From contig NZ_FNYY01000029.1 of NCBI RefSeq assembly GCF_900109145.1, positions 1 to 50,009 of the forward strand: a DNA stretch of 50,009 nt. Reading direction: 5' to 3'. Source of the stretch: Marinovum algicola. GTDB taxonomy: Bacteria; Pseudomonadota; Alphaproteobacteria; Rhodobacterales; Rhodobacteraceae. Positions within the stretch are counted from its first letter, which is position 1. Each line of letters starts with the position of its first letter. The position numbers and the translations under genes are program-made. A model generated the notes under the pieces. That model had not been told where the DNA came from. It saw only the letters and a program-made list of their open reading frames with translations, and ran no database searches. Positions 16,028 through 48,554 of this stretch are shown piece by piece.

Positions 16028-16723
16028 ATGCAAATCGCCCTCATTCCTGCCCGTGGGGGCAGCAAACGCATCCCCCGCAAGAACATTCGCCCCTTCGCCG
16101 GCCGTCCGATGATCGGCTGGCCGATTGCCGCGGCCCGGGCCTCGGGGCTCTTCGACCATGTGATCGTCTCGACCGACGATGAGGAGATCGCCGAGGTTGC
16201 CCGCGCCCAGGGCGCCGAGGTGCCCTTCATACGCCCCGACCACCTGGCCGACGATTTCACGCCGGCGCGCGAGGCGATCGTCGATGCGGTCGAGACGATG
16301 GAAGAGATCGTCGGGCAGAAGGTCGAGCGGCTGTGCTGCATCTATGCCACCGCCGCCTTTGTGCAGGCGGCGGATCTGCAACAGGCGCGCCGGATCCTCG
16401 ACGGGGTCGCCGAGGGCGGCTTTGTCTTTGCCGCCGCCAGCTATCCGCACCCGGTTCACCGCGCCATGACCGAAGGCGAGGCGGGCATCGGCATGCTGTT
16501 TCCCGATTATGCCAAAACCCGCACGCAGGATCTGCCGGAGGCGTTCCACGATGCCGGCATGTTCTACTGGGGGCGGCGCGATGCCTTTGTCTCGCGCGCG
16601 CCGATGTTCAATCCGGCCTCGCGCCCGCATGTGATGCCGCGCCAGCGGGCGCTGGATATCGACACGCCCCAGGATTGGGATTTCGCCGAGGCGCTGTTCG
16701 AGTTGGGGCTGCGCACGGCATGA
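16028..16723 (+). CDS. pseF: Pseudaminic acid cytidylyltransferase
   Basis: Predicted 231-aa CMP-sugar synthetase that activates pseudaminic acid with CTP. The N-terminal nucleotide-binding motif LIPARGGSKRIPRKNI occupies residues 5-20, VIVSTDDEEIAEVA follows, and the C-terminal region has HDAGMFYWGRRDAF and RQRALDIDTPQDWDFAE, all characteristic of the PseF/NeuA family. Length matches PseF. Its stop overlaps the start of the next gene by ATGA, implying translational coupling to the Kps-like glycan protein. The other Pse genes are on the opposite strand at 19.7-33.5 kb. Distinction from legionaminic or Neu5Ac synthetases rests on context (pseB, pseC, pseG, pseI all present). Confidence 0.88.
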   Translation: MQIALIPARGGSKRIPRKNIRPFAGRPMIGWPIAAARASGLFDHVIVSTDDEEIAEVARAQGAEVPFIRPDHLADDFTPAREAIVDAVETMEEIVGQKVERLCCIYATAAFVQAADLQQARRILDGVAEGGFVFAAASYPHPVHRAMTEGEAGIGMLFPDYAKTRTQDLPEAFHDAGMFYWGRRDAFVSRAPMFNPASRPHVMPRQRALDIDTPQDWDFAEALFELGLRTA

Positions 16724-18399
16724 AGCTGCGTCTCGACATTCCCAATCAGTTTGCCTTCGAGAGCTACGCCGATCACGACATCATCCGCACGGCCTATGAC
16801 AATGTGATCCAGGCGGCGATGCGCCTGGAACTGAAGACCGAGCTCTGCCGCGCCCGGCTTGCCGAGGGTCAGCGCCTGGAGGTGCAGAACGCGGCTGAGA
16901 TCCGTTATGCCTATCACAGCGAGGAGATCGGGGATCAGGTCTATTGCCTCAAGCCGGGCGCCCTGCCGCGCTACTGGTTTTTCGATTCCTGCGGCTACAG
17001 CGGCTGGTCGCAGATGGCGACAGACCCGGCACTGCAGGCGGCGGGAAAGGATTTCGACCTGCGCCGCGCCCGCAAGTTCATCAAGCAGTACCGCGAGAGC
17101 ATCGCTCGCGAGAACCTGTCGAAGCTGGAGCAGCCGGGAACCCCGCTGGAACCGGAGATCGCCAGACTGCAAGATTTCATCTTCCTGCCGTTGCAGGTCG
17201 ATCACGATCGGGTCCTCCGACATCTGCCGTGGGAGCAGAGCGACACCCTCCGCCGGGTGACCGAACTGGCCGAAACACACCGCCGCCCGGTGGTGATCAA
17301 GCGTCACCCACTCTGCCGTTCCGGGGCGATCACCGCTTGGCTCGAGACCGTCTCAAAGTCCAGGTATGTCTTTGTCTCCGAAGGTTCGATCCATGCTCTC
17401 ATCGCCCGCTGCCGTGCCGTTCTGGTGGCCAATTCCGGTGTTGGGCTCGAGGCGCTGCTACAGGATACCCCGGTCTATAGCATGGCGCGCAGCGAATACC
17501 GCCACATGACTCGCCCAGTAGAGACACTGGCGGCGCTGGAGCAGGTCTTCACAGAAACGCCGGCGCCGGTCGCCGCGCTCACCGAGCGGCTGCTGGGGTT
17601 CTTCTTTTTGGAATACCTTGTGGATTCCACCGATGTCTCGGCAATCGAGGCCCGCCTGCGTCAGCACCTTCACGCGCATCCGGGCCTGGCCGAGGCGACG
17701 GCGGCAATGGCGGATCGGAAAGCCGAGGACAATCTGGAGATTCTCACGGAACGGGTCACCAGGCATTTGACATCGACCGTCGAACTGATGCTGAAGAGCG
17801 GCCCGCCTGCGGCAAAACCGGCGCGGATCGAATGGATCAGGATCCTCGGGATGGCCGGGGGCCTCGGCATCCGGCGCGAACGGATCCTGGCCGACGGCGG
17901 CCCCACCGCCTGCTTGCAGGCCGCGACCCGGCTGGCCAACAGCGGCGAAGACCCGAGATGGGCCTACAAGTTCGCCCGAGCGGCGCTGCCGGCCGCGAAC
18001 CACGGGGGCCGCGCACGGCTGGTGCTGGCCAAGGTCGCGATACAAACTGGGCAGATCGAGAAGGCGATTGACGAACTGCGGCGGGCGCTGAGGTGTTCAG
18101 ATGTCAACGAATACATCTATCTCACCCTCGCCGAATGCTTAATGCGCCAGGGTCTCGCCCACCAGGAGGAAGCTCGCAGCCTGGCGCGCGAGGCCCTGAA
18201 GCGCAATCCGGCTCTGCCGACTGCGCATCTGCTTCTGGCACAGGTGGAAAATGCACGCGGGCGACGCAAGTCCGCGGTGCGGCATATCCTCAAGGCACAG
18301 GAGATCGCCCCCGCCCATACTGCAGTGGTCGAGGCGGCCGCACGCTATCTTGGAGGTTGCGAGACCGAGGAGCCGGCCTCAGATTTGACCCGCTCGTGA
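16720..18399 (+). CDS. Capsule-type glycosyltransferase-like protein with C-terminal TPRs
   Basis: Predicted 559-aa protein. Residues about 150-260 resemble the capsule synthesis (KpsC/KpsS-like, GT-B) fold: FIFLPLQVDHD near 152, VVIKRHPLC near 195, and VANSGVGLEALLQDTPVYS near 237-255, which is the usual Asn-Ser-x-x-Gly-Leu-Glu nucleotide-binding element. Residues about 415-545 are TPR-like helices (QIEKAIDELRRAL, EARSLAREALKRNPALPTAHLLLAQ). The ATG overlaps the pseF stop by four bases, which fixes the start; the open frame continues far upstream but in pseF's shadow. It may be the transferase that uses the CMP-sugar made by PseF, but this is context-based inference. Confidence 0.72.
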   Translation: MKLRLDIPNQFAFESYADHDIIRTAYDNVIQAAMRLELKTELCRARLAEGQRLEVQNAAEIRYAYHSEEIGDQVYCLKPGALPRYWFFDSCGYSGWSQMATDPALQAAGKDFDLRRARKFIKQYRESIARENLSKLEQPGTPLEPEIARLQDFIFLPLQVDHDRVLRHLPWEQSDTLRRVTELAETHRRPVVIKRHPLCRSGAITAWLETVSKSRYVFVSEGSIHALIARCRAVLVANSGVGLEALLQDTPVYSMARSEYRHMTRPVETLAALEQVFTETPAPVAALTERLLGFFFLEYLVDSTDVSAIEARLRQHLHAHPGLAEATAAMADRKAEDNLEILTERVTRHLTSTVELMLKSGPPAAKPARIEWIRILGMAGGLGIRRERILADGGPTACLQAATRLANSGEDPRWAYKFARAALPAANHGGRARLVLAKVAIQTGQIEKAIDELRRALRCSDVNEYIYLTLAECLMRQGLAHQEEARSLAREALKRNPALPTAHLLLAQVENARGRRKSAVRHILKAQEIAPAHTAVVEAAARYLGGCETEEPASDLTRS

Positions 18400-19669: not shown

Positions 19670-20740
19670 TCAGCTTTCGCCGTCGAGCAGGTCCCAGCTC
19701 ATCGGGGTGCCGCGCTTGACGTCGCGGCCGACCTTGCGGCCCAAGAGCACGTCATAATGGCGCGGCGCGAGGCCCAGACCCGGGCGGATGCGGCGCAGGG
19801 TCTTCTCGGTCAGCACCTCGCCGGCCTTCATGTCCTCGCCGATGTAGAGCGAGCGGCGCTTCTTGCGGCCAGCCTGTTCCGAGGCGGTGCCGCCGAACCA
19901 GATCTCGCCCATCGCCTGGGCGGCGCGCTTGCATTCGGTGACCAGCGCGGTGAACTCGTCGGGCTCCAGCGAAAAGGCGCTGTCGACGCCGCCCTCTGAG
20001 CGGTCGAGGATGAAGTGCTTCTCGATCACCGTGCCGCCGAGCGCGGTCGAGGCCACCGCCACGCCATTGCCCATGGTGTGATCCGAGAGGCCGAAATTGG
20101 TGCCGAAGGTCTGGCCGATCACCGGCATGGTGACGAGATTGGTGTTTTCCGGGCTCGCCGGGTAGGACGAGGTGCATTTCAGCAGCGTCAGGTTGGTGCA
20201 GCCGGCCGCGCGCGCGGTTTCCACCGCCTCGCCGATCTCGACGACGCTGGCCATGCCGGTGGAGATGATCATCGGCTTGCCGGTCTGCGCCACGCGGCGG
20301 ATCAGCGGCAGGTCGATCGCCTCGAAGGAGGCGATCTTGTAGAGCGGCGCGTCGAGGCTCTCGAGCAGGTCCACCGCATCCTCGGAAAACGGCGTCGACA
20401 TGAACAGCAGCCCGTGTTCCTTCGCCCGGTCGGCGATCGGCTTGTGCCAGTCGGCCGGGGTATGGGCCTCCTCATAGAGGTCGTAGAGCGTGCGCCCGAC
20501 CCAGAGCGATTTCGGATCGGTGATGGTGAACTCGCCCTCGGAGAGATCGAGCGTCATGCTGTCGGCGGTGAAGGTCTGGATCTTGATCGCATCGGCACCG
20601 GTCTCGGCGGCGGCATCGACGATCGCCAGCGCCCGGTCGAGCGACTGGTTATGGTTGCCCGACATCTCGGCGATGATGAAGGGGCTGCCGTCATTGGCAA
20701 TGCCGTGGGTCTTGCTGAGTTCTTCGCGCAGTGTGAGCAT
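19670..20740 (-). CDS. pseI: Pseudaminic acid synthase
   Basis: Predicted 356-aa enzyme condensing 2,4-diacetamido-2,4,6-trideoxy-L-altrose with phosphoenolpyruvate. The NeuB TIM-barrel domain covers about 15-275 with FIIAEMSGNHNQSLDRA, DAIKIQTFTADSMTLD, FMSTPFSEDAVDLLE, YKIASFE, CTSSYPAS, GLSDHTMG and VIEKHFILDRSEGGVDSAFSLEP. A C-terminal SAF (antifreeze-like) domain starts near 295 (RRSLYIGEDMKAGEVLTEKTLRRIRPG) and completes the active site of the dimer. The AEMSGNHN signature and SAFSLEP favour PseI over NeuB or LegI. It is the last gene of an operon running neuB-like, pseG, ATP-grasp, SDR, pseI, and has a GAGAGGA ribosome-binding site. Confidence 0.92.
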   Translation of the reverse strand: MLTLREELSKTHGIANDGSPFIIAEMSGNHNQSLDRALAIVDAAAETGADAIKIQTFTADSMTLDLSEGEFTITDPKSLWVGRTLYDLYEEAHTPADWHKPIADRAKEHGLLFMSTPFSEDAVDLLESLDAPLYKIASFEAIDLPLIRRVAQTGKPMIISTGMASVVEIGEAVETARAAGCTNLTLLKCTSSYPASPENTNLVTMPVIGQTFGTNFGLSDHTMGNGVAVASTALGGTVIEKHFILDRSEGGVDSAFSLEPDEFTALVTECKRAAQAMGEIWFGGTASEQAGRKKRRSLYIGEDMKAGEVLTEKTLRRIRPGLGLAPRHYDVLLGRKVGRDVKRGTPMSWDLLDGES

Positions 20741-21655: not shown

Positions 21656-22788
21656 GCGCGGTTCCGCACGTAATAGCCCACCACTTCCAGCGTGCCATTG
21701 ACCGGGCGCACGTCCTGGCCGGCGTCATAGCGGTATTCGTGGTAGATCGCATCCTCGGGCACCGGAAAGGCCGCGGCGCTGAACGGCTGGCCCGGCGCCA
21801 TCTGCTGGAACATCAGCTCGGCGATCGGCCGCTGGCGGTCGCCTTCGCCGCCGCCCGGCAGCTGTTCGGGCGTGCCCTCGCCGGTCAGGCAGTCCATCGC
21901 CATGGCGATCAGGTCTGCGCCCTCGGCGGCGCGGATCAGCCGCCACATGTGGCAGCCGTCGAGCCGCGGCGCGATTTCCACCACGCGGGGGCCTTCGGGG
22001 GTCACGATCATCTGGAAATAGAGCACCCCGTCGCGGCTGCCGAGCGCCGCGATGATGCCGTCGACCAGCGCCAGGGCGGCGCGCTGGTTGTCCTCGCTGA
22101 CGGCATCGCAGGGCACCAGGTGGCCGCGCGGCACCCCCAGCGCATGGGGGCCATGCACCAGCCGCTCGGACAGCACCTTCATCTTGACCTCGCCGCCGCA
22201 GACCAGCACGTTGCAGGAGATCTCGACCCCGTCGAGGAAGCCTTCGACAATCGCCTGGCTGCTGCGCGAAAAGCCCACCGCCGCCGCGATCGCCGGCGCC
22301 AGGTCTGCCGCCCGGTCGACCCGGACGACGCCGCGTTGACCTTGCGCATCGGTCGGCTTGACCATGCAGGGGAAGGTGTCCCAGCCCGCGGCCTCTGCCG
22401 CGCTGGCCAGCTTGCGGTAGGGCACCGGGCCGAGATCATGCTCGGTCAGGAAACCGCGCAGGGCGGCCTTGTCGTCGAGCAGATCGATGAAGGCGCTGTC
22501 GTAGAAATGCGGCAGGCCGACCCGTTCGGAGAGCGCCACCACCGATTTCATCGCCACATCCGAGGAGATCGAATAGATCAGGTCGGGCTTGTGCCGTTCG
22601 ACCACCGCCTCGAGCGCCTCGAGATCAACGATATTGACCGCCTCGACCACGTCGCAGAAGGCCTGTCCGGGCTCACCCTTGACCGGAGAGGCGCCGATCA
22701 CCCGCCAGCCGCGGTCCTTCATGTGACGGATCAGATCCGCCTGGCCGGCATTGGTGCCCAGCACCAGGATGGTTTTTTGCGTGCTCAT
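21652..22788 (-). CDS. ATP-grasp ligase-like protein of a nonulosonate operon
   Basis: Predicted 378-aa ATP-grasp enzyme. The N-terminal Rossmann-like pre-ATP-grasp domain starts KTILVLGTNAGQADLIRHMK. The ATP-grasp core shows PCMVKPTDAQGQRGV (ATP-binding Lys and glycine-rich loop), IVEGFLDGVEIS, and YFQMIVTPEGPRVVEIAPRLDGC, with the metal-binding Glu and the Arg in its expected place. These enzymes join a carboxylate to an amine, thiol or phosphate nucleophile through an acyl phosphate. It overlaps pseG upstream and the SDR downstream by four bases each, so it is firmly in the pseudaminate operon. It could add an amino-acid or other acyl group to the amino sugar or nonulosonate; this is inference. 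Confidence 0.82.
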   Translation of the reverse strand: MSTQKTILVLGTNAGQADLIRHMKDRGWRVIGASPVKGEPGQAFCDVVEAVNIVDLEALEAVVERHKPDLIYSISSDVAMKSVVALSERVGLPHFYDSAFIDLLDDKAALRGFLTEHDLGPVPYRKLASAAEAAGWDTFPCMVKPTDAQGQRGVVRVDRAADLAPAIAAAVGFSRSSQAIVEGFLDGVEISCNVLVCGGEVKMKVLSERLVHGPHALGVPRGHLVPCDAVSEDNQRAALALVDGIIAALGSRDGVLYFQMIVTPEGPRVVEIAPRLDGCHMWRLIRAAEGADLIAMAMDCLTGEGTPEQLPGGGEGDRQRPIAELMFQQMAPGQPFSAAAFPVPEDAIYHEYRYDAGQDVRPVNGTLEVVGYYVRNRA

Positions 22789-23840
22789 GTCGTCTCGCTT
22801 TCCCGTTCGAGCAGCGCGTCGGTCAACCGCTGCGTGCCTTGTCCGTCGACCAGCGCCCGGCCCTTGGCGGCCATGGCGCGGCGGCGGGCGTCATCCTCGA
22901 CCAGTTCCGAGACCGCCGCCCGCAGGCGGTCATCCCCGACGGTGCCCACCAGCCCCAGGAAGGGCGCCCCGGTGAGATCCTGCCAGCCGCGGCAGGGCCG
23001 CTCCTGGTTCGGCGCCAGCCCGACAAAGACCGTGGGCAGCCCGCAGATCGCCGCCTCGTAGCTCATCGTGCCGCCGCCGATCAGCGCCAGATCGCAGCCG
23101 CGCATCAGCCCGGCCATGTCGGGCGGGTTGACGTGGAACTCGGCCTGGCCGGCGGGCAGCGCCGCCACCGTCTCGGCAATCGCCGCGCGGCGGGGATTGC
23201 CGGCGCCCGAGACCAGCACCAGCGTCACCTCGGGGCCGAGCTGTCCGGCCAGGGTGCGCAGCGCCTGTTCCAGCGCGCCGCGATCGTCGCCGCCGCCAAA
23301 GGCCACCAGCACCCGGCGCACCGCGCGGCCATCGACCCGCGCGGTGATCCCGGTAAAGGCCGGGCGCAGCACCGCATAGGCCGGGCCGAACAGCGTCCGG
23401 GTATGCTCGGGCTCGGCCAGCCAGGGCAGATATTGCGCGCGTTTCTCGTAGGGGCTGGCATTGACCAGCAGATCGGGCTGGAACATCCAGGGGCGGGAGG
23501 CATCGAATTGTTGCAGCCAGCGCAGGCCGGCCGCGCGCAGACGCTGCTGATAGCCGGGATCGACGCGGTAGTCGTCCATCACCACATGGCGCGTGCCATG
23601 GGCTTCGCAGAGTGCCAGGACGCGGGCGGCATCGTCGTCAGAGCTGCCGCGATCCTCGACGCTGTGCCAGCCGGCAAAGAGCCCCTCGTCGGCGGGCTGG
23701 CGCAGGCTGTCGGGCGGGCCGAGCAGCACCGAGTGCCAGCCGAGCGCACCGAGATAGCGCGCCATCTCGCGACAGCGCATGAGATGGCCCAGGCCGACGC
23801 TGGCCGAGACATTGCAGCGGAAGATCACGGTGCCGGTCAT
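22785..23840 (-). CDS. pseG: UDP-2,4-diacetamido-2,4,6-trideoxy-beta-L-altropyranose hydrolase
   Basis: Predicted 351-aa PseG, releasing UDP from the fourth-step intermediate of pseudaminic acid synthesis. It has the GT-B/MurG-like arrangement: an N-terminal glycine loop VGLGHLMRC with H19 as the likely catalytic base, VVMDDYRVD near 86-94, a linker, and a C-terminal UDP-binding half with VLVAFGGGDDRGAL and ALIGGGTMSYEAAICGLPTVFVGLAPNQ. The length is that of PseG alone; no PseH acetyltransferase domain is fused. It follows the short NeuB-like gene after a 121-bp gap containing a strong hairpin and overlaps the ATP-grasp gene by four bases. Confidence 0.88.
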   Translation of the reverse strand: MTGTVIFRCNVSASVGLGHLMRCREMARYLGALGWHSVLLGPPDSLRQPADEGLFAGWHSVEDRGSSDDDAARVLALCEAHGTRHVVMDDYRVDPGYQQRLRAAGLRWLQQFDASRPWMFQPDLLVNASPYEKRAQYLPWLAEPEHTRTLFGPAYAVLRPAFTGITARVDGRAVRRVLVAFGGGDDRGALEQALRTLAGQLGPEVTLVLVSGAGNPRRAAIAETVAALPAGQAEFHVNPPDMAGLMRGCDLALIGGGTMSYEAAICGLPTVFVGLAPNQERPCRGWQDLTGAPFLGLVGTVGDDRLRAAVSELVEDDARRRAMAAKGRALVDGQGTQRLTDALLERESETT

Positions 23841-23961: not shown

Positions 23962-24876
23962 TCAGGCCCGGCCGCCGGACCATTTCAGCTTGTCGCGCTG
24001 GACCTGTTCCACCGGCAGGATCTCCTGGCCCTTGAAGGCCAGCGCGCGGTCGACATTGGCGATGTCGCGGCACAGCCGGCGCAGCCCGTCGGGCTCGAGG
24101 CTGGCGGCGTGATCGGTGCCCTTCCAGGTGCGGTCGAGGGTGAAGTGGCGCTCGATATGCGAGAAGGTGCCCTTGCCCTCGGCTTCCATCATCCGGCCCA
24201 CCGCCAGCGCCGCCACATCGGCGGCAATGCCCAGGTGGTGACCGGAGAAGCCGATGCTTCTGACCCGGTCGCCGAAGCGTTCCATCAGCGACTTGATCTC
24301 GAACAGGCAGATGTCCTCGAAGGCCACCGGGTAGCCCGAGGTGCAGCTGTAGACCACCAGGTCCTTGGCGCGGCCGCGCTCTTCGTAGAAGTCCACCAGC
24401 TTGCCGATCTCGTCACCGGTCGACATGCCGGTCGAGACGTGGATCTCGCCGGCGAAATGCTCGCAGAGATAGCCTTGCAGCTCGTAGTGCTGGTTGGTGG
24501 CCGAGGGGATTTTCAGCATCGGCGGGTTGAGCGTGGTCATCTCCTTGGCCGAGGTCAGATCCCAGACCGAGGTGGAATAGGCGATGCCGTTGGCGCGGCA
24601 TTCCTCGACCAGCTCCTTGTGCTGATCCAGGTCGAGCTCGAGAAACTCGCGGTGCGCGCCATAGGTCGGCCCATAGGCGTTTTCCGGCACCGGGTGCGGC
24701 GTGTCATATTCGGAGGCGGTCAGAAGCTCGCGGTTGTGGCGCTTCTGGAACTTGGCGACATCCGCCTTGCAGACATGGGCGGCGACCCGGATCAATTCCT
24801 TGGCGATCTCCAGATCGCCCTTGTGATTGCAACCAATTTCCGCAATCACTTGCACTGGCGGAGAAGCTTGAGTCAT
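23962..24876 (-). CDS. Short NeuB-family synthase lacking the SAF domain
   Basis: Predicted 304-aa member of the NeuB nonulosonate synthase family. VQVIAEIGCNHKGDLEIAKELI opens the barrel; VAKFQKRHNRELLT, YSTSVWDLTSAKEM, IPSATNQHYEL, IHVSTGMSTGDEIG, YSCTSGYPV, SIGFSGHHLGIAADVAALAVG and SHIERHFTLDRTWKGTDHAASLEPDGL follow, so the PEP-aldolase-type core is intact. Unlike PseI at 19670 it stops after the barrel with no SAF domain. A GTG at 24888 would add four residues; the ATG at 24876 is preferred slightly. It heads the pse operon and is divergent from a GT2 gene only about 30 bp away. It may make a second nonulosonate (for example Neu5Ac-type) used by the NeuA/GT42 operon at 44-47 kb. Confidence 0.82.
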   Translation of the reverse strand: MTQASPPVQVIAEIGCNHKGDLEIAKELIRVAAHVCKADVAKFQKRHNRELLTASEYDTPHPVPENAYGPTYGAHREFLELDLDQHKELVEECRANGIAYSTSVWDLTSAKEMTTLNPPMLKIPSATNQHYELQGYLCEHFAGEIHVSTGMSTGDEIGKLVDFYEERGRAKDLVVYSCTSGYPVAFEDICLFEIKSLMERFGDRVRSIGFSGHHLGIAADVAALAVGRMMEAEGKGTFSHIERHFTLDRTWKGTDHAASLEPDGLRRLCRDIANVDRALAFKGQEILPVEQVQRDKLKWSGGRA

Positions 24877-24909
24877 CTTTTCTAGCACCTAAAACAATGG
24901 GGTAGGGTC

Positions 24910-31114: not shown

Positions 31115-31304
31115 CTTTACCCCTGCTGCGCGCCCTCGCCGGGACGCATTGAAATCAAGCCAAAACCATCAACGGACGATAAATCAATATATTCGACAAT
31201 ATCCGCGAGCGGCCGGCCGGATCACTCGCCTCTAGCCTGTGTTGCATCGGTGCCAAACGAGTACCGCCCCTGAGGAGATACCTCATGCCCCCCGTGCGAC
31301 GCAA

Positions 31305-31334
31305 GCGATCCGCCACTGAAAGGCGGCGGATCGC
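31305..31334 (-). terminator. Hairpin downstream of pseC
   Basis: GCGATCCGCC (31305-31314) and GGCGGATCGC (31325-31334) form a perfect 10-bp stem with a 10-nt loop, starting 10 bp after the pseC stop. It is a plausible terminator or processing site within the 229-bp gap before the 1050-aa gene. It lacks an obvious T-run. The rest of the gap holds an A/T-rich stretch around 31160-31205 that could carry a promoter, but no clear pair was resolved. Confidence 0.5.
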
Positions 31335-31343
31335 GGTAGCTAT

Positions 31344-33502
<2,159 letters not shown>

Positions 33503-37403: not shown

Positions 37404-38500
37404 TCTTCAGGGCTCCGCCGGTTCGCGCCTGAAACCGTCCCCCGGTGGGGGTCCGAAACGGCGCCCACCCCGAGCCGCGTGCCCACCCCCTGACGCGATT
37501 GCAGCGCCCGCCACCAGGCCTCGTTGTCGAGATACCATTGCACGGTGCGCTCCAGCCCCTCGTCAAGCGTGACCGAGGGCCGCCAGCCCAGTTCGCGGGC
37601 GATCCGCGCCGGATCGATCGCATAGCGCGCGTCGTGGCCCGGGCGGTCGGCGACAAAGGTGATCTGATCGGCATAGGAGCCCGAGGGCTTCGGCCGTTTG
37701 GCATCGAGGATGGCGCAGAGCGTCCGCACCAGCTCGAGATTGCTGCGCTCGTTCTCGCCGCCGATGTTGTAGCTCTCGCCCGGGGCGCCCCGGCTCAGCA
37801 CCAGCAGCAGCGCTTCGGCATGATCCTCGACATACAGCCAGTCGCGCACGTTCGAGCCATCGCCGTAGATCGGCAGCGGCCGGCCCGCCAGCGCGCCGAG
37901 GATGATCACCGGGATGAGCTTTTCCGGGAAGTGATGGGGGCCGTAGTTGTTGGAACAATTGCTCAGCACCACCGGCAGCCCGTAGGTGTGGAACCAGGCC
38001 CGCACCAGGTGATCGCTGGCCGCCTTGGAGGCCGAATAGGGCGAGCGCGGGTCATAGGGCGTGTCCTCGGTGAACCTGCCCTCGGGCCCCAGCGAGCCGA
38101 AGACCTCGTCGGTGGAGATGTGGTGAAAGCGGAAATGCGCGGGACGGCCGGCCTCGGTCCAGTATCCGCGCGCCGCCTCGAGCAGGGTGTAGGTGCCGGT
38201 GACATTGGTCTCGACAAAGGCGCCGGGGCCGTCGATCGAGCGGTCGACATGGCTCTCGGCCGCCAGATGCATCACCGCATCGGGGGCATGGCGGGCGAAG
38301 ATCCGGTCGAGCGCGGCGCGGTCGCGGATATCGGCATGTTCGAAGGCATACTCCGGGTGATCGGCGACGCTGGCCACATTGTCGAGACAGGCGGCATAGG
38401 TCAGCGCGTCAAGATTGACCACCGCATGGCCGGCGGCAATCGCCTGCCGCACCACCGCCGATCCGATGAAGCCGGCGCCGCCGGTGATCAACAGCTTCAC
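37400..38500 (-). CDS. rfbB: dTDP-glucose 4,6-dehydratase
   Basis: Predicted 366-aa RmlB, converting dTDP-glucose to dTDP-4-keto-6-deoxyglucose. [17 protein letters not shown] at the start is the NAD site, followed by [29 protein letters not shown] with the catalytic Asp-Glu pair, and the Tyr-x3-Lys in [28 protein letters not shown] and [14 protein letters not shown] are also diagnostic. The start is a GTG at 38500 that overlaps the rfbC stop by four bases; the longer open frame upstream is a shadow of rfbC. Confidence 0.95.
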
Positions 38501-39060
38501 GCCGGGCGCTCCGCGAAGCTCTCGAGATCGGCCAGCCAGCCGGCGGCGGCATCGCGCGCCGAAAGCACCGGCGCCCGGCCCTCGAGCCCCCAGTCGATCC
38601 CGAGCTCGGGATCGTCCCAACGCACGCCGCGCTCATGGGCGGGGGCATAGGTGTCGGTGCATTTGTAGAGGATCTCGGTGTCGGGGTCGCGGGTCACGAA
38701 ACCATGCAGGAAGCCTTCGGGGATCAGCAGCTGCCGACCGTTCTCGAAGCTCAGCTCGACCCCGACCCATTGCCCGAAGGTGGCAGAGCCCGGCCGGATG
38801 TCGACCGCCACGTCATAAAGCCGGCCGCGGCCGCAGCGCACCAGCTTGGCCTGGGCGCGCGGCGGCAGCTGGCAATGCAGCCCGCGCAGGGTGCCGGGCG
38901 TGGCCGAAAGCGAATGGTTGTCCTGGACGAAATCCAGCGTGATGCCCTGCGCCGCCAGGGTCTCGCGGTTCCAGCTTTCGGAGAAAAAGCCGCGGTTGTC
39001 GCCATGGCGGGCGGGGGTGAGGATCAGCACGCCCTCGAGCGCGGTCTTCTCGATCTGCAA
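38497..39060 (-). CDS. rfbC: dTDP-4-dehydrorhamnose 3,5-epimerase
   Basis: Predicted 187-aa RmlC, a cupin-fold epimerase. [35 protein letters not shown] with the catalytic His in [34 protein letters not shown] and the CTDTYAP end of the barrel are conserved. The start codon is TTG at 39060 preceded by a GAAGAGG site, an unusual start that may limit expression. It is the first gene of the rhamnose operon and is divergent from the RTX protease gene across 189 bp that must hold both promoters; no clear hexamers were resolved there. Confidence 0.94.
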
Positions 39061-39249
39061 GGGGGACCTCTTCTGTCGCGGCCGGGATGCGCCCTTGGCT
39101 TAGCAAGCCCGCCCCGGCTTGTCACCCGAGGCGCGCGCAATGCGATTGTCATAACCGGGCGAACGCGGCAGAGTACGTCAATCCCGGCCGGGGCCCCTCG
39201 TGTGGCGCCGGACCGCTATTTGAAAACGTCACCCTTCGGGAGCGCAGGC

Positions 39250-42312: not shown

Positions 42313-43965
42313 ATGCGAGTACGAGTACATACCGCCACAAACGGCATCAGCCAGATCCATACTTATGGAGGGGGCCTCGAAAATCAGGTGAACCACTGGG
42401 AAAACCTGGGCTTCGAAACCATCACCGAGTTCTCTCACGGGCACCATGCCCGCGCCGGGGGCGGCTCTGACACGTTCAACTTCGTCGATATCGACAACGT
42501 CCGGGACACCATCGTCGGCCGGCTGGAGGATTTCGATCCCAGCCGCGACGAGATCCGGATCGAGGGTGTGCTGCTCGATCTGAACAACCTGCCCGCCAAT
42601 GTGCGCGTCGTCGCCTTCAACGGCGCGCATAACGATCCCGGCACCGCGCCGCAGCCCTGGCTGCTGATCGAGACCCCGGCGGGCGGCCATATCTTCTATG
42701 CGCTCGAAGGCGCGCGGATCGACATGAACGGCAACGGCGGCTCGAACGGCCACCAGCACGAGCAGCATTTTCTCACCCTGCCGCACATGCCGGATTTCGA
42801 CACCCTGCCCGACATCGACTTCGTCGATCCGGTCAACGTTGTCCCCGAGGGGGTCACCGCCGACGGCGGCCTGGTGATCAACGACGTCGACACCGACGAG
42901 GACGAGGTGCTGGCGGTGATCACCGGCAGCGCGGCCGGCGATGCGATCGGCGCCGGGCTGAACGACGACACGGTGCATGGCCAGCAGGGCAATGACGTGA
43001 TCTGGGGCGGCAGCGGCTCTGACGCGGTCTTTGGCGGCGAGGGCGCCGACAGCCTGCACGGCGGCAGCGGCGACGACCTTCTGGTCGGCGGCAACCAGGC
43101 CGACAACGGCCGGAGCGACGCCGGGGCCGACCTGCTCACCGGCGGCGCCGGCAGCGACGAGATCCGCGGCGGCGGGGGCCATGACACGCTCGAGGGCGGT
43201 GACGGCCATGACCGCCTGGTGGGCGACTGGGGCGCCGATTACCTCGCCGGCGATGCCGGCAATGACACGCTGATCTCGAACTCCGGGGTCGACACCGTCC
43301 TGGGCGGCGCCGGCGACGACTGGATCAGCTCGGGCAATGGCGCCGACATCATCGACGGCGGCCGCGGCGACGATTACGCCATCGGCCGCAGCGGCACCGA
43401 CATCATCGACGGCGGCGCCGGCAACGACAGCCTGTTCGGCAGCGCCGGGGCCGATACGATCAGCGGCGGCAGCGGCAATGATTACGTCTCGGCCGGCTCG
43501 GCCTGGGATGTCGTCTTCGGCGATTCAGGCCATGACACGCTGGAAGGCAATTTCGGCAGCGATGCGCTCTCCGGCGAAGGCGGCAACGACAGCCTGCTGG
43601 GCGGCACCGGTGACGACACGCTTTCCGGCGGCGCCGGCAATGACACCCTCCTCGGCAATCAGGGCCGCGACATCCTCGATGGCGGCGCCGGCGACGACCT
43701 GCTGCGCGGCGGCACCCTGGCCGACGAGTTCCACTTCGACCTCGGCGGCGGCACCGACACGATCCAGGATTTCGAGAATTTCCAGGACGAGCTGCATATC
43801 GCCACCGGCCTGGTGGACGGGATGACCGACGGCCGTGACATCGTCGACACCTATGCCTCGGTGGTGGATGGCGACACGGTGTTCGACTTCGCCGATGGCA
43901 CCACCCTCATCCTCGAAGGCCAAACCGACGTGGCCGCGCTTTACGACAACGTCTTCGCGGTCTGA
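42313..43965 (+). CDS. RTX-type calcium-binding secreted protein
   Basis: Predicted 550-aa protein. Residues 1-200 form a domain of unknown function (HTYGGGLENQVNHWENLGFET, SDTFNFVDIDNVRDTIVGRLEDFDPSRDEIRIEG) that itself resembles a C-terminal RTX-like fold plus a His-rich patch NGHQHEQHF. RTX GGxGxDxLx repeats run from about 210 to 470. The final 80 residues (QDFENFQDELHI ... YDNVFAV) are almost the same as in the upstream protease and probably carry the type I secretion signal. No Sec signal or catalytic motif was recognised. Its 3' end overlaps the convergent epimerase gene by 25 bp. A structural, adhesive or accessory matrix role is inference. Confidence 0.85.
   Translation: MRVRVHTATNGISQIHTYGGGLENQVNHWENLGFETITEFSHGHHARAGGGSDTFNFVDIDNVRDTIVGRLEDFDPSRDEIRIEGVLLDLNNLPANVRVVAFNGAHNDPGTAPQPWLLIETPAGGHIFYALEGARIDMNGNGGSNGHQHEQHFLTLPHMPDFDTLPDIDFVDPVNVVPEGVTADGGLVINDVDTDEDEVLAVITGSAAGDAIGAGLNDDTVHGQQGNDVIWGGSGSDAVFGGEGADSLHGGSGDDLLVGGNQADNGRSDAGADLLTGGAGSDEIRGGGGHDTLEGGDGHDRLVGDWGADYLAGDAGNDTLISNSGVDTVLGGAGDDWISSGNGADIIDGGRGDDYAIGRSGTDIIDGGAGNDSLFGSAGADTISGGSGNDYVSAGSAWDVVFGDSGHDTLEGNFGSDALSGEGGNDSLLGGTGDDTLSGGAGNDTLLGNQGRDILDGGAGDDLLRGGTLADEFHFDLGGGTDTIQDFENFQDELHIATGLVDGMTDGRDIVDTYASVVDGDTVFDFADGTTLILEGQTDVAALYDNVFAV
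43288..43965 (+). repeat. 678-bp RTX/C-terminal module, copy 2
   Basis: Gap-free counterpart of 41281-41958, in the same orientation 2,007 bp downstream. The module covers the final RTX repeats and the predicted secretion signal. Confidence 0.8.
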
Positions 43966-45107
43966 TCCACCGCGGGCGGCGTCAGGCCGGCAAGCCGGCC
44001 GCTGTCATGGCACAGGAAGGCCTCGACCAGGTGATAGAAGGTCGAGGCCGGCATGGTGTCGGAGACCAGCGCGCCCTTCCCGTCGCGCTGGTCGTACCAT
44101 CCGCCCGGCACCGGCGTCTCGAGATAGCCCGCCCGGATCCGCGCCAGAACGGCCTCGGGGCGCAGCCGCTCCGGCAGGTCCGCCCCCGCCCCCTGCATCA
44201 GCCGCGCCGCCCGCAACAGCTCGCTCTGCGGCCAGAGCCGGAAGCTGGCCTGCCCCGCCACATCCGGCAGCAGGCCCCCGGGCGACAGATGCGCCGTGGC
44301 GGCGGCGAACATCGCCTCGGGCGGCGGCAGCGGCGCGCCCCCTGCCCCCTCCGGCAGATCCAGCGCCTGCCAGCCCGCCTCGAGCGCGATCCACTCCACC
44401 AGATGCCCCGGCTCTTCGCGCTGATCCGCGCCGGTCAGCGGGCGCAGACCGGCATCGTAGAATTCCAGCAGCCGCAGATCCGCCCCCAGGAAGGTCTCGG
44501 CCATCAGCCGGCGGCAGGTGGCGGCGCGGGCGGCGAAGCGCGGCGCGCCGGTGGCACGGTAGAGCGCGCACATCGCCTCGAAGAGATGCATATGCGGGTT
44601 CTGCCGCCGGGGCAGGCGCCGGGCGGCGCATTCGTGCCAGCCGCGCGGCGCGGCCAGCCGGTCGAGGGCGCCCTCGAGCCTGGCGATCTCGGAGCTGACA
44701 TCCGTGCCCGCCGCCGCCAGCCCGGCCGCCGCCAGCAGCACGAAGCTGAGATCATAGAGATCATGCGGCGCCGTGCGGATCGTCAGATCCGGCGCCAGCC
44801 AGCTGGCCAGGTTGCCGCTGCCGGGGGCAAAGCCCCGGGTCATGACAAAATCGAACAGGCCCTCGGCCCGGGTCCGGAGATCGGCGGCCAGCGCCGGGCA
44901 AACCCCGGGCTGGCGGGCGAGCGTGGCAAAGGCATAGGCCTGGCGCGCCTGCACCCTGAGCCGCCGGTCGAGATCGCGCCGTGGCCGGCCGGCATGGTCC
45001 AGCGCCTCCCAGACGGTTCCGGTCGCCGCGTCCCAGCCGGCGCCGGTCCAGAGTGGCACCGCCTGGTCCAGCAGCCAGCCCCGCAGCCCCCCGGGCGCGG
45101 CGCTCAC
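43941..45107 (-). CDS. AGE-family epimerase/isomerase
   Basis: Predicted 388-aa (alpha/alpha)6-barrel enzyme of the N-acylglucosamine 2-epimerase family. Family marks are RLRVQARQAYAFA near 49-61, QNPHMHLFEAMCALYRATG at 169-187, EEPGHLVEWIALE with H235, and a C-terminal ASTFYHLVEAF with a second conserved His. Members either interconvert GlcNAc and ManNAc or isomerise mannose/glucose. Here it is the last gene of an operon with NeuA-HAD and a GT42 sialyltransferase, so making ManNAc for sialic acid is attractive; the NPHMH motif is also common in mannose-isomerase members, so substrate stays open. The start is GTG at 45107 overlapping the transferase stop. The 3' end overlaps the convergent RTX gene. 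Confidence 0.84.
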   Translation of the reverse strand: MSAAPGGLRGWLLDQAVPLWTGAGWDAATGTVWEALDHAGRPRRDLDRRLRVQARQAYAFATLARQPGVCPALAADLRTRAEGLFDFVMTRGFAPGSGNLASWLAPDLTIRTAPHDLYDLSFVLLAAAGLAAAGTDVSSEIARLEGALDRLAAPRGWHECAARRLPRRQNPHMHLFEAMCALYRATGAPRFAARAATCRRLMAETFLGADLRLLEFYDAGLRPLTGADQREEPGHLVEWIALEAGWQALDLPEGAGGAPLPPPEAMFAAATAHLSPGGLLPDVAGQASFRLWPQSELLRAARLMQGAGADLPERLRPEAVLARIRAGYLETPVPGGWYDQRDGKGALVSDTMPASTFYHLVEAFLCHDSGRLAGLTPPAVDQTAKTLS

Positions 45108-45913
45108 CGGCCGGGCCCGCGGCGGAACAGCCCGCGCCGCAGCGCCGCGCCGCGGCGCAGCAGCTTGAGCAGGGCAATCGGATAGACCCCGGCCCAGCCG
45201 GCCCAGTCATCCACCGGATTGGCCCGCGGCCGGCTGTCCAGCGCCGCGCCCTCGCGCGCCGCGGCCAGCGGCAACAGATCGGCCAGCGCCGATTGCGCCG
45301 CCGTGCGCTCCAGCCGCAGATCGCCCCGCGCCAGCAGCATCTCGAGGATCGCCCGGTCGAGATCGGGGTTGTGCAGATGCGCATCCGGCCCGGAGGCCGC
45401 CATGCCGGGCTGCATCAGCGCCCGGTGGTGCCGCCCCGGCGTAAAGAGATAGCGCGCCCCGCCGGAATAGAGATCCATGCCCGCCACCAGCACATGCCGC
45501 GCCCCCAGCCCATGTGCCGCCAGCACCGCATAGGTGCCCGACATCGGTTTGCGCTGATAGCGCGCCATCAACGCCTCGACCCCGCGTTCGACCGCCGTAT
45601 CGCGGAACCGGAGCGGGTGGTAGAGATCGCGGAACCGGCGCATGCCCGCCTTGACGACCTTCGGGTTGTGGCTGGTCCAGCCGCGGATGTCGTATTCATC
45701 GCGGCAGCGGTGCAACGTCTCGAACATGAAGGGCGCGACCCGGGGATCGCCGGCGATATAGGCCATGTCGACCCGTCGGCCGAGATGAAACTCTTGTTCG
45801 AAAAAGAAGTTGTTGGTCCGCAGCACCGCATCCCCGGCCAGCACCCGCCCCGGGGCGATGCAGCCCAGCGAATGGCCATTGCCGGCCACCACGCAGACCC
45901 GGTCTTCGAACAT
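45104..45913 (-). CDS. GT42-type sialyltransferase (CstI/CstII-like)
   Basis: Predicted 269-aa CMP-sialate glycosyltransferase. It follows the Campylobacter CstII pattern: VVAGNGHSL at 8-16 (CstII IAGNGPSL), LRTNNFFFEQEFHLG at 31-45 (CstII FRCNQFYFEDKYYLG), SGTYAVLAA at 125-133 (SGVYMCAVA), GMDLYSGG at 145-152 (GIDFYQNG), and HLHNPDLDRAILEML at 179-193, where H181 aligns with the CstII catalytic H188. The start ATG at 45913 is 5 bp after the NeuA stop. It should transfer a sialic or related nonulosonic acid from its CMP donor to a galactose-type acceptor on the surface glycan. The basic C-terminal tail is consistent with membrane association. Donor identity (Neu5Ac-like or pseudaminic) is unresolved. 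Confidence 0.85.
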   Translation of the reverse strand: MFEDRVCVVAGNGHSLGCIAPGRVLAGDAVLRTNNFFFEQEFHLGRRVDMAYIAGDPRVAPFMFETLHRCRDEYDIRGWTSHNPKVVKAGMRRFRDLYHPLRFRDTAVERGVEALMARYQRKPMSGTYAVLAAHGLGARHVLVAGMDLYSGGARYLFTPGRHHRALMQPGMAASGPDAHLHNPDLDRAILEMLLARGDLRLERTAAQSALADLLPLAAAREGAALDSRPRANPVDDWAGWAGVYPIALLKLLRRGAALRRGLFRRGPGR

Positions 45914-45918
45914 GGGCC

Positions 45919-47112
45919 TCACACCCGGGCCAGCAGGGCATCGCACATGGCCCGCAGCGCGCCGCGCCCGCCGGGCTGCGGCAGCACCCAGTCGGCCATG
46001 CCCAGGATCTCCGGATGGGCATCGCCGGGGCAGGCCGAAAGTCCGGCCCGGGCCATCGCCGCCGCATCGTTGACGTCATTGCCGACATAGAGCAGCTGGT
46101 CCCAGCCCAGCCCCTGCCCCGCCAGCCAATGCTCCAGCGCCGTCACCTTGTCGTCGACCGACTGGTGCACCTCGATCTGGAGTTTCGCAGCGCGACGCTC
46201 GACCACCGGGTTGCGTTCCTTCGACAGGATCATCAGCTGCCAGCGCCCGGCCTTGCGCAGCATCTCGAGCCCCATGCCGTCGCCGCGCGAGGTCATCACC
46301 GCCTCGCGGCCGGTCTCGTCGGTGAGCACCAGGTTGTCGGTATGCACCCCGTCGAAATCCATCACCACCGCGGCAATGCCATCGGCGCGACAGCCCAAGC
46401 CTTCGCTGCCGCCGCGCAGCACCGCGATCTGCGCACAGAGCGCCAGGTCGTCCAGGCTGTCGATCTCGACCGGCGGGTGATCCACCGGCGCCAGCGCCAC
46501 CGGGCCGCAGAAGCGGCGGCCGACGCGGGCAAAATCCTCGGCGCGCACGCAATAGACCGCGCCGCTTTCGCGAAAGGCCGGTGGCAGGTCCTGACGGCGC
46601 TGGCGCGGCTGGCGCTCGTCGTGGTTGGTGCCGCGGCCGCGGCCCTCGGCATCCAGGCTCCAGAGAAAGGAATGGTCCTCGATCACCGAGAGCGCGCAGG
46701 CCGCCGCCTGCTCCTCCATCGCCGCGAGGCAGGCCTCGATATCGGCGCCGGTGGTGAAGGGCGAGGTGCATTGCAGAAAGACCAGACGGTCCACCGGGAG
46801 GCCCTGCCCCGCGATCACCTCGAGCGCATGCAGCCAGCCGCTTTCCGAACTGGCGCCATCGCCCGAGATCCCGGTCGGCCGGTCGATCACCTCGGCCCCG
46901 AAACGCCGGGCCTCGGCGGCAATCGCGGCATCGTCGGTCGAGACATGCACCGCCGTCACCGAAGGCGCCGCCCGGCCGGCCCGCACCGCGCGCGCCACCA
47001 GCGACAGCCCGCCCACGGCGCGCAGGTTCTTGCCGGGCACCCCCTTGGAGCCGCCGCGCGCGAGGATCACGCAATGGGTTGCAGGGCGTTCGGGCGCATT
47101 CTGGGCTGACAC
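45919..47112 (-). CDS. neuA: CMP-sialic acid synthetase fused to a KDO8P-phosphatase-like HAD domain
   Basis: Predicted 397-aa bifunctional-looking protein. Residues 14-240 are a cytidylyltransferase (CVILARGGSKGVPGKNL, VHVSTDDAAIAAEARRFGAEVI, FLQCTSPFTTGADIEAC, ESGAVYCVRAEDF, PPVEIDSLDDLALC). Residues about 245-397 are a HAD domain of the KdsC type, with the nucleophile/acid pair D252/D254 in VMDFDGVHTDN, SKERN as motif II-like, and YVGNDVNDAAAM as the metal motif. The start is uncertain: GTG at 47112 fits the domain boundary and the divergent gene at 47236, though the frame stays open upstream. Such a fusion suggests coupling of a nonulosonate-9-phosphate phosphatase or a structural role to CTP activation. 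First gene of an operon with GT42 and AGE epimerase. Confidence 0.85.
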   Translation of the reverse strand: MSAQNAPERPATHCVILARGGSKGVPGKNLRAVGGLSLVARAVRAGRAAPSVTAVHVSTDDAAIAAEARRFGAEVIDRPTGISGDGASSESGWLHALEVIAGQGLPVDRLVFLQCTSPFTTGADIEACLAAMEEQAAACALSVIEDHSFLWSLDAEGRGRGTNHDERQPRQRRQDLPPAFRESGAVYCVRAEDFARVGRRFCGPVALAPVDHPPVEIDSLDDLALCAQIAVLRGGSEGLGCRADGIAAVVMDFDGVHTDNLVLTDETGREAVMTSRGDGMGLEMLRKAGRWQLMILSKERNPVVERRAAKLQIEVHQSVDDKVTALEHWLAGQGLGWDQLLYVGNDVNDAAAMARAGLSACPGDAHPEILGMADWVLPQPGGRGALRAMCDALLARV

Positions 47113-47235: not shown

Positions 47236-47451
47236 ATGCTTGCACGCCTCAAGGCCACCCTTCTCGGGAAATGGCTCTATCGCCTGTCGCGGCATGACAT
47301 CTTTGGCGCGCCGCTGCGCTGGCTGCTGGATCTGGGGGTCGCCGAACAGCTCGATCCCGCTCATTGGAAGGTCGCGAACCGGCAACACAATGCCCGTCAG
47401 GCGGCGACGCTGGCGGCGTTCCGCACCCGCGCCGGGGGCGCGGGCCAATGA
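47236..47451 (+). CDS. Small protein translationally coupled to a glycosyltransferase
   Basis: Predicted 71-aa protein beginning MLARLKATLLGKWLYRLSRH. It is basic and amphipathic, with a hydrophobic middle (IFGAPLRWLLDLGVAEQL) and a soluble helical end (QHNARQAATLAAFRTR). No family was recognised. The case for a real gene is the four-base ATGA overlap with the next gene, its position as first gene of a plus-strand unit divergent from neuA, and an ATG close after the possible promoter. It could be a membrane-associated partner or leader peptide for the downstream transferase. Function unknown. Confidence 0.55.
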   Translation: MLARLKATLLGKWLYRLSRHDIFGAPLRWLLDLGVAEQLDPAHWKVANRQHNARQAATLAAFRTRAGGAGQ

Positions 47452-48554
47452 GCGGCACCCCGCGGCTGCTGCTCACCTTCTGCGACGATTCCACGCTGAT
47501 CTTTGCGGTCCGCCTGCGGGCGCTGCTGCGCGCCGCCGCGCCCGAGGCCGAGATCACCCTCGGTTGCTACCTGCCGGAACAGGCGCTGTCGCTGCGCCAG
47601 CTCGAGATGCTGGTGCCCGAGGCCGACTACGTGCTGTTCAACAGGGAGACGCTGATCGAGGCGGTGCAGGCGGGCCTCTACGACGCGGTGCTCACCAGCC
47701 GGGTGTTCCGCGCACTGGCCAACTTCCTGCGCACCCCGGCGCTCAAGCATCTGCGCCACCGGACCCAGGTGATCTCTTTCCTCGGCGGTCTCGATTTCTT
47801 TCCCGAGCGCGGCTATGCCAACCGCATGCCCTGCGACGGGGTCTTCCTGTTTCCGCAGAGCGACACCCGGAAGTTCGCCGCCTGGGCCCGCGAGCAGGCG
47901 GCGATCGACAGCAATGTCACCGCGCCGCTGGTGGATTTCGGCCATCCGACCTTTCTTGCCCCCACGCTGACCCCGCCGGAGGATCTGGACACACGGCGCG
48001 ACATCTATTTCTTCGCTCAGGCGATCTCGCCGCTGACCCGGCGCGGCCGGCTGCATGTGCTCGAAGCCATGGTGGCCCTGGCCGAGGCCAACCCCGACCG
48101 CCAGGTCTGGATCAAGCTGCGCCACCTGCCCGACGAGAACACCCGCCACCTGCACCGCGAGCGCCACGATTACCCCGGGCTGCTCAAGGCGGCCTTTCCC
48201 GAGGCGCCGGCCAACCTGCGCCTCACCGCCTGCCCGATGGACGAGGCCACGGAACAGGCGGCGCTGGGGATCACCTGCACCTCGACCGCCGCGATCGACC
48301 TGATCCGCGAAGGCGTGCCGACGATGGTCTATCTCGATTACGTCGATGCCTACATGGACCCGATGTCGGCGGCGATGCGGCGGCTGTTCGAGGGCAGCGG
48401 GGTGATCACCTCGCTCGACGACCTGCTGCATCTGCGCACCCGGGCGCCCGAGCCGGACTGGGTGGCGCAGATGTTCTGTCCGCGCGATCTGGGCCAACGG
48501 GTGCTGGCGATGGTCGCCGCGCTTCAGGACCGCGCGGCGTCCGCGTCGGGATAG
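47448..48554 (+). CDS. Putative GT-B glycosyltransferase (DUF6716-like)
   Basis: Predicted 368-aa protein. PRLLLTFCDDSTLIFAVRLRALL opens an N-terminal Rossmann-like half; VISFLGGLDFFPERGYANRMPCDGVFLFP is the most distinctive block; IYFFAQAISPLTRRGRLHVLEAMVALAEANPDRQVWIKLRHLPDE and GITCTSTAAIDLIREGVPTMVYLDY form a C-terminal half like those of capsule and polysialyl-type transferases, with T-S-T-A-A-I-D as the likely nucleotide contact. The overall pattern recalls DUF6716 putative glycosyltransferases, often near sialic-acid genes, but the assignment is tentative. The ATG at 47448 overlaps the small upstream gene; its end overlaps the convergent sulfotransferase by 31 bp. Confidence 0.65.
   Translation: MSGTPRLLLTFCDDSTLIFAVRLRALLRAAAPEAEITLGCYLPEQALSLRQLEMLVPEADYVLFNRETLIEAVQAGLYDAVLTSRVFRALANFLRTPALKHLRHRTQVISFLGGLDFFPERGYANRMPCDGVFLFPQSDTRKFAAWAREQAAIDSNVTAPLVDFGHPTFLAPTLTPPEDLDTRRDIYFFAQAISPLTRRGRLHVLEAMVALAEANPDRQVWIKLRHLPDENTRHLHRERHDYPGLLKAAFPEAPANLRLTACPMDEATEQAALGITCTSTAAIDLIREGVPTMVYLDYVDAYMDPMSAAMRRLFEGSGVITSLDDLLHLRTRAPEPDWVAQMFCPRDLGQRVLAMVAALQDRAASASG

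Follow-up and report, generated by a model that had tools for sequence, protein, structure and literature searches.

The transferases CstI and CstII of Campylobacter, members of glycosyltransferase family 42 (GT42), use cytidine monophosphate (CMP)-sialic acid as donor; in CstII a catalytic role is ascribed to His188, and Asn51 and Arg129 are tied to the binding of a sialylated acceptor (PMC4202792). Pathways to the nonulosonic acids (NulOs) branch from UDP-N-acetylglucosamine (UDP-GlcNAc), with the exception of 3-deoxy-D-glycero-D-galacto-nonulosonic acid (Kdn) (PMC8053191). For Kdn, a set of synthase, phosphatase and cytidylyltransferase is described from Bacteroides thetaiotaomicron and Prymnesium parvum, leading from mannose-6-phosphate through Kdn-9-phosphate and Kdn to CMP-Kdn, and the P. 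parvum enzyme makes CMP-Kdn, not CMP-N-acetylneuraminic acid (CMP-Neu5Ac) (PMC6200933). Here we analyse a 50,009-base stretch of Marinovum algicola DNA, the complete contig NZ_FNYY01000029.1 (the window), in which a GT42 gene lies between a gene for a fused cytidylyltransferase and HAD-type phosphatase (NeuA-HAD) and one for an AGE-superfamily epimerase or isomerase. We hypothesize that these genes are part of a split cassette, completed by a distant synthase gene (neuB2), that builds a single nonulosonic acid, most likely Kdn, and transfers it; we put the probability of this reading at roughly 0.55. Compared with the Bacteroides and Prymnesium set, the phosphatase and cytidylyltransferase of the cassette are one protein, the synthase has no SAF domain, and GT42 and a protein of family DUF6716 belong with the set.

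The three open reading frames (ORFs) all lie on the minus strand, span 43941-47112 and have the codon-position guanine-plus-cytosine content expected of coding frames, and the GT42 and AGE genes overlap by 4 nucleotides. An earlier sequence-only reading of this DNA had described a compact operon at this place, and this description stands: the Pfam families match, and the trio is also annotated, at about 99% protein identity, on plasmid pMaD10 of M. algicola DG 898. Because it is annotated there and kept in other genera, we do not regard it as a chance arrangement. The pMaD10 annotation begins the GT42 gene later, at the equivalent of about 45913, which by this comparison is probably the true start. 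Divergent from NeuA-HAD lie a 71-amino-acid ORF and the DUF6716 gene, the stop of the former overlapping the start of the latter (ATGA); the longest DUF6716 ORF begins at 47364, 47448 being the likelier start, and in a model made from the longer start residues 1-30 have a predicted local distance difference test score (pLDDT) below 50. A scan for promoters found none, and one for terminators gave 2 matches against 1.3 expected, near chance.

The trio is incomplete, since a sugar synthase is needed and is encoded elsewhere; here the sequence-only reading, which let three genes suffice, finds no support in that form, and its list lacked both the synthase gene at 23962-24888 and the divergent genes at 47236-48554. 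NeuB2, about 19 kb from the trio, has 308 amino acids and a NeuB domain only, stopping at the point from which PseI continues with its C-terminal part, and is the likely synthase of the cassette sugar, judged from its co-occurrence with the other genes. A genome scan with the GT42 profile and two short peptide patterns found 21 loci, all placed in Rhodobacterales (organisms or metagenome-assembled genomes, one titled only 'Alphaproteobacteria'), and a plasmid search found the cassette on pMaD10 and on plasmids of Tritonibacter, Pseudorhodobacter and Maritalea (Hyphomicrobiales). We count 24 loci (L010-L033), leaving L007 and L008 uncounted as the same as L014 and L021, and keeping pMaD10 (L009) apart as near-identical; as the loci were chosen by GT42, neither the frequency of the other genes without GT42 nor the absence of GT42 elsewhere can be read from them. 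NeuA-HAD, GT42 and DUF6716 are present in 24/24, and the order NeuA-HAD, GT42, AGE with DUF6716 divergent is kept in 22; L011 and L013 lack AGE, and NeuA-HAD is set apart in L011. The small ORF was found in 23 of the 24 at E ≤ 1e-3, not being found in L012 and being weakest in L011 (29% identity, E 1e-4). A further alignment (A4) leaves out L010-L012 and also L030, where the ORF extracted was a 23-amino-acid piece.

Every one of the 24 genomes or records with the cassette has NeuB2, whose identity of 73-96% is higher than the 42-78% of GT42 and the 43-77% of AGE; one match (W02) includes a single TAG, which lies outside the annotated gene. Among genomes of the window's relatives, GT42 occurs in 3 of 195, its own included, and the same three (the others being G003 and G041) are the only ones of 190 with a near full-length NeuA-HAD of at least 70% identity. 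In G041 NeuB2 adjoins the cassette; G127 has a further fused NeuA-HAD relative at 30% identity. The plasmid location given in the sequence-only reading is likely right for the window, but in other genera the cassette unit also lies on contigs of 0.5-1 Mb and so is not specific to small plasmids. All the enzyme families are known; the SAF-less synthase bound to the cassette, the small ORF, the regular link to DUF6716 and the Kdn reading are seemingly undescribed, and no study of this cassette was among the open-access literature matches listed.

By sequence and modelled fold, the cassette transferase is a GT42 protein. It scores 28.9 bits on PF06002 (cut-off 25, E 1e-6), no single stretch passing alone; of six further copies from other cassettes, five also reach the cut-off, L027 falling below it. 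A phmmer search of the PDB returned CstII and CstI at about 1e-8 (CstII entry 1ro7 at 1.2e-8) and the Pasteurella entry 9c08 at 3.2e-5. An AlphaFold2 model built from 22 sequences (alignment A3, which leaves out the plasmid loci L010-L012) has a mean pLDDT of 86.3, and its 16 best Foldseek matches are CstI, CstII and 9c08, with template modelling (TM) scores to the query of 0.59-0.72 (about 0.7 to 1ro7 and 1ro8); the next match, human ST8SiaIII, has a TM score of 0.40. His192 aligns with His188 of CstII in the phmmer alignment and is invariant (22/22), as is Tyr166; Tyr160 is kept in 21 of 22, with His in L027, and we take these two Tyr to be active-site residues. The two Tyr positions and the GNG.S and RxN motifs are likewise shared with CstI and CstII. 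The differences are that identity to these is only about 20%, that the donor of the cassette enzyme would be CMP-Kdn, and that the Asn51 position of CstII holds an invariant Asp and the Arg129 position is variable (K, H, Q, V, S). Because of these two positions, we think that the cassette GT42 probably uses an acceptor other than the sialylated one of CstII. A search of PHROGs gave no match for GT42 or the 71-amino-acid ORF.

The NeuA domain scores 53.5 bits on PF02348 (cut-off 22.6, 3.7e-14), and a HAD match is also present; in the PDB the fusion matches the cytidylyltransferase 1eyr (5e-28) and the HAD protein 3mmz (1.1e-34). In an alignment of the window protein with those of all 24 loci (A6, 25 sequences), the NeuA motifs R19-G-G, Q114, RRQD and D218 are invariant, as are the HAD positions D252, D254, S297, K322, N345, D346, N348 and D349, which form the DxD, S, K and GNDxND motifs that we take to be catalytic. 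The intact look of these HAD positions suggests, as far as residues can, that the route passes through a 9-phosphate intermediate. E299, R307 and K310 are invariant in the same 25 sequences (E. coli KdsC has R at the first of these positions and T at the last) and presumably correspond to the specificity residues of the Bacteroides Kdn-9-phosphate phosphatase. The NeuA domain also shares the stretch H.FLW..D....N.D...RRQD with PDB entry 9t4z and partly with 1qwj; the stretch is absent from 1eyr, 6ifd and 9ftb. Residues near Phe192 of 1eyr, where the alignment is poor, are left out of the comparison. Entry 9t4z carries only the label 'PpNeuA' in the PDB table, and we take it to be the P. parvum enzyme introduced above. 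In its architecture the fusion resembles mammalian-type CMAS with a C-terminal HAD domain (it matches 1qwj and 3ewi, which we assume to be one kind of protein, CMAS); a difference, drawn on the cassette side only, is that all 25 copies keep the HAD catalytic positions. In these respects the sequence-only reading fared well: both its assignment to GT42, for which it had proposed an active-site check by structural alignment that we ran by sequence and fold and that did not refute it, and its NeuA, here supported as a CMP-nonulosonate synthetase domain, agree with the profile matches and conserved residues.

The AGE protein scores 122 bits on PF07221 (cut-off 23.4, 3.6e-35), and H174, H235 and H359, which we take to be catalytic, align with those of 3gt5 and are invariant in the 21 sequences of alignment A5 (L011 and L013, without AGE, and L014 and L023 are left out). 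On the GlcNAc 2-epimerase equivalog NF052547 it reaches only 18.9 of the required 600 bits. A profile of the 21 cassette sequences matches 15 PDB sequences, including cellobiose 2-epimerases and YihS/sulfoquinovose isomerase; 1fp3 and 2gz6, which we take for the canonical entries of GlcNAc 2-epimerase, do not appear in this set. Sources of N-acetylmannosamine (ManNAc) are scarce otherwise: UDP-GlcNAc 2-epimerase and NanE were not found in the window's own genome (controls positive in 11/14 and 8/14 genomes), each is over its cut-off in 2 of the 21 cassette genomes, and 17 have neither, G202 with a below-cut-off match being counted as without. The own genome has a match to type-II phosphomannose isomerase (PF01050, contig C57), from which we conclude that mannose-6-phosphate (Man-6-P) can probably be made.

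Taken together, the HAD residues, the scarce ManNAc sources, the AGE score, the phosphomannose isomerase and the PpNeuA-like stretch lead us to favour Kdn. In the proposed route, Man-6-P would come from the genome's phosphomannose isomerase, from a sugar delivered via the AGE-family enzyme, or from both. NeuB2 would condense it with phosphoenolpyruvate to Kdn-9-phosphate, the HAD domain would release Kdn and the NeuA domain would activate it to CMP-Kdn. GT42 would then place Kdn on a capsule-type polysaccharide, with DUF6716 possibly a second transferase, and Kps-type proteins (6856-9738) would export the glycan. What the computation shows is the gene set and how it is conserved, the kept active-site residues, the modelled GT42 fold, the linkage of NeuB2 with GT42 and the presence of cassettes in genomes where a PseI was not found; the sugar, the substrate of AGE, the part of DUF6716, the acceptor and the export step are inferred.

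Six plasmid records of Sinorhizobium, Ensifer and Rhizobium hold relatives of NeuB2 at 69-72% identity. On pSymB of S. meliloti ml28 the genes for an ABC permease and a capsule protein are followed by those for NeuB2, NeuA-HAD, DUF6716 and a 556-amino-acid GT42-GT8 fusion (L081, 15411-17081), with identities to the window of 72% for NeuB2, 47% for NeuA-HAD and 24% for GT42. The likeness to these K-antigen loci lies in NeuB2, NeuA-HAD, DUF6716 and GT42 standing beside capsule genes; the differences are that GT42 is fused to GT8 and that the S. meliloti stretch compared gave no AGE match. In four rhizobial stretches NeuB2 and NeuA-HAD were found in all four (NeuA-HAD in two pieces in L080); DUF6716 gave BLAST matches in three and a Pfam match in the S. 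meliloti stretch, where alone GT42 was seen, and AGE was seen in none. A full-length relative of the fusion at 73.5% identity is encoded about 30 kb from NeuB2 in Ensifer adhaerens (NZ_CP015881.1 and NZ_CP121309.1). From its domains, the fusion is a possible bifunctional capsule polymerase, and a fused GT42-GT8 fits the disaccharide repeat of hexose and Kdx (a 2-keto-3-deoxy sugar acid) that symbiotically active S. meliloti strains commonly have in their K-antigens (PMC4881576); for strain ml28 no structure of the capsule was found. As a wider and more tentative proposal, to which we give somewhat less than an even chance, roseobacters and rhizobia may share a Kdn capsule module of SAF-less Kdn-9-phosphate synthase, fused phosphatase and CMP-Kdn synthetase, DUF6716 as a new family of Kdn transferases, a small protein (in roseobacters) and a CMP-Kdn-dependent GT42; the GT42-GT8 proteins of S. 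meliloti and Ensifer would be two-headed hexose-Kdn polymerases, and the coat specified by the window could carry both Kdn and pseudaminic acid (Pse). A polysaccharide containing methylated Kdn has reportedly been obtained from S. fredii.

We stress that several points weigh against Kdn. Neither domain of NeuA-HAD reaches any NCBIfam equivalog cut-off (the HAD domain has 77.9 of 180 bits on the Kdn-9-phosphate phosphatase model NF058599), nor do NeuB2 (173 of 400 and 126 of 340 bits) and AGE, and the Neu5Ac-synthase model gives NeuB2 a better score than the PseI model does. Of the 15 PDB matches of the AGE profile, the best and three more carry N-acetyl- or N-acylglucosamine 2-epimerase labels (3gt5, 5x32, 8h1k-n); we take these to be mannose-type enzymes, which their labels do not say. 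The evidence against GlcNAc activity is thus mixed, and GlcNAc may yet be a substrate of AGE. The nearest folds to DUF6716 are UDP-GlcNAc 2-epimerases, and the completeness of the 21 cassette genomes is not stated. Neu5Ac and Kdn share enzymes (PMC8053191), and a neuraminic acid residue in a lipopolysaccharide core is mentioned, with reference to work on Loktanella rosea (PMC5811610), so related bacteria may make Neu5Ac. The table of sinorhizobial capsules in PMC4881576 lists 3-deoxy-D-manno-octulosonic acid (Kdo) and Pse and no Kdn, a word absent from that paper.

The main rival, which we consider unlikely but serious, is a Neu5Ac cassette along the lines of the sequence-only reading, in which AGE converts GlcNAc to ManNAc, NeuB2 and NeuA yield Neu5Ac and then CMP-Neu5Ac, GT42 works as a genuine sialyltransferase and the HAD domain acts on Neu5Ac-9-phosphate or is idle. 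The CMP-sialic acid donor of CstI and CstII (PMC4202792), the neuraminic acid of the lipopolysaccharide core (PMC5811610) and the epimerase names among the PDB relatives of AGE all speak for it, as does the finding of CMP-Neu5Ac synthetases as the nearest cytidylyltransferases in the PDB. Also on its side, AGE is the sole PF07221 match in the own genome and, no other route to ManNAc having been found there, would be its single source. Against it stands the very low score of AGE on the GlcNAc 2-epimerase model. No AGE match was found in cassette genome G195 (metagenome-assembled) or on the Pseudorhodobacter plasmid, where the plasmid record only was searched, and in L023 (Roseovarius sp. EGI FJ00037, about 10789-11850) the gene is broken by an in-frame stop. 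A 9-phosphate route to Neu5Ac would further require a ManNAc kinase. The supply of ManNAc by AGE, as the sequence-only reading had it, is not supported, the equivalog score being against it; as the profile also finds structures labelled GlcNAc 2-epimerase, this does not settle the point.

It is improbable, in our judgement, that GT42 instead transfers Pse from the plasmid's own CMP-Pse, with NeuA-HAD as a second CMP-Pse or related synthetase. PseB, PseC, PseF, PseG and PseI of the window all pass their NCBIfam equivalog cut-offs, and with the second NeuB they bear out the sequence-only claim of two nonulosonate systems on one plasmid, no PseH having been identified. This proximity, and that of pse genes to the cassette in several loci, favours CMP-Pse, as does the first 50 kb of pMaD10, which lacks a close PseF: the best match there to the window's PseF is NeuA-HAD (31%), although an SpsF-like protein is annotated. 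Against it, the window has its own PseF, and NeuA-HAD reaches only 88.5 of the 205.7 bits of the PseF equivalog. A search for PseI found none in 9 of the 21 cassette genomes (G197, G198, G201, G204, G206, G207, G209, G210 and G213), where the ever-present NeuB2 is the sole NeuB-family match; the second NeuB of G214 and of the Maritalea plasmid is at only 32-33% identity. In these nine, barring an overlooked PseI, NeuB2 and NeuA-HAD have to supply the donor of GT42, which is probably, on gene content, not CMP-Pse. We rejected CMP-Pse as a general donor after this search. As regards pMaD10 itself, the lack of a close PseF in its first 50 kb implies that another enzyme, perhaps the SpsF-like one, must activate Pse there.

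Very improbable is the reading of DUF6716 as a ManNAc-supplying, divergent UDP-GlcNAc 2-epimerase, by which the product would be Neu5Ac even if AGE uses another sugar. Its gene is in 24/24 loci, and the GT-B-type model (pLDDT 84.5) has UDP-GlcNAc 2-epimerases as its best Foldseek matches at TM scores of about 0.5-0.6; identities there are 10-15%, the root mean square deviation is mostly 6.5-9 Å, and many GT-B transferases follow close behind. An hhalign comparison with two PF02350 proteins of cassette genomes, a weak test with single-sequence templates, gave probabilities of 0.2 and 0.1 percent, and the epimerase candidate was not supported. The protein scores 130.8 bits on PF20471 (cut-off 27), which Pfam describes as a putative glycosyltransferase, and we regard a second transferase as its probable role; a comparison with the capsule protein encoded on the plasmid itself was negative, and no literature on DUF6716 was found among open-access sources. 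Least probable of all is another C9 sugar made via a 9-phosphate intermediate, such as some modified form of Kdn or a NulO not yet known, to which the SAF-less synthase, the missed equivalog cut-offs and the methyltransferase and sulfotransferase genes also present on the plasmid would be suited, and for which no specific precursor pathway was identified.

The remaining genes of the Pse system and of capsule export are collected with the cassette in Table 1. In the comparison with the first 50 kb of pMaD10, 36,122 bases of the window align at more than 90% identity; the main stretches that do not are 4137-6646, 14272-19668 and 25752-31356, the first of which may correspond to the last 2.5 kb of pMaD10, outside the part compared. 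Three RTX-repeat proteins are encoded beside the polysaccharide genes (38635-41958 and 42313-43965 on the plus strand, 4198-6708 on the minus strand), one of them with subtilase and P-proprotein domains, and many relatives also have RTX-like matches close to the cassette. Beside the pse genes, at 25802-28035 on the minus strand, an AAC(3)-fold acetyltransferase is paired with a DUF4910 protein, as also in Tritonibacter p4 and L026; the pair perhaps serves sugar modification rather than drug resistance. The rhamnose genes rmlA, rmlD, rmlB and rmlC lie at 35665-39060 on the minus strand; such rml genes occur on roseobacter biofilm plasmids.

Table 1. Cassette genes and other surface-polysaccharide genes of the window
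Feature	Position	Strand	Remark
NeuA-HAD: CMP-nonulosonate synthetase domain (~14-225) and KdsC/NulO-9-phosphate-phosphatase-type HAD domain (~242-394)	45919..47112	-	GTG start
GT42 (CST-I family) glycosyltransferase	45104..45946	-	Pfam, phmmer, fold
AGE-superfamily epimerase/isomerase	43941..45107	-	Pfam PF07221
Conserved small ORF, 71 amino acids	47236..47451	+	without Pfam match
DUF6716 protein, GT-B-type fold, putative glycosyltransferase	47448..48554	+	PF20471
NeuB2, SAF-less nonulosonate(-9-phosphate) synthase, constant cassette partner	23962..24888	-	NeuB domain only
PseF	16028..16723	+	separate pseudaminic acid system, above equivalog cut-off
PseI	19670..20740	-	separate pseudaminic acid system
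PseG	22785..23840	-	separate pseudaminic acid system
PseC	31344-32501	-	separate pseudaminic acid system
PseB	32498-33499	-	separate pseudaminic acid system
KpsT-like	6856-7572	-	capsule export
KpsE/BexC-like	7527-9032	-	capsule export; model score under the cut-off
KpsM/ABC-2-like	8914-9738	+	capsule export
Capsule_synth (PF05159) and TPR protein	16333..18399	+	Pfam

If the Kdn reading is true, GT42, a family known mainly from host-mimicking mucosal bacteria, would have an environmental branch that works with a different sugar, and annotations of these genes as 'sialic acid synthesis' in marine Rhodobacterales would need to be re-read as Kdn. The cassette offers NeuB2, NeuA-HAD, GT42 and DUF6716, together with environmental hosts, for direct tests of donor choice, and it links the surface-polysaccharide genes of marine bacteria to the capsule genes of rhizobia.

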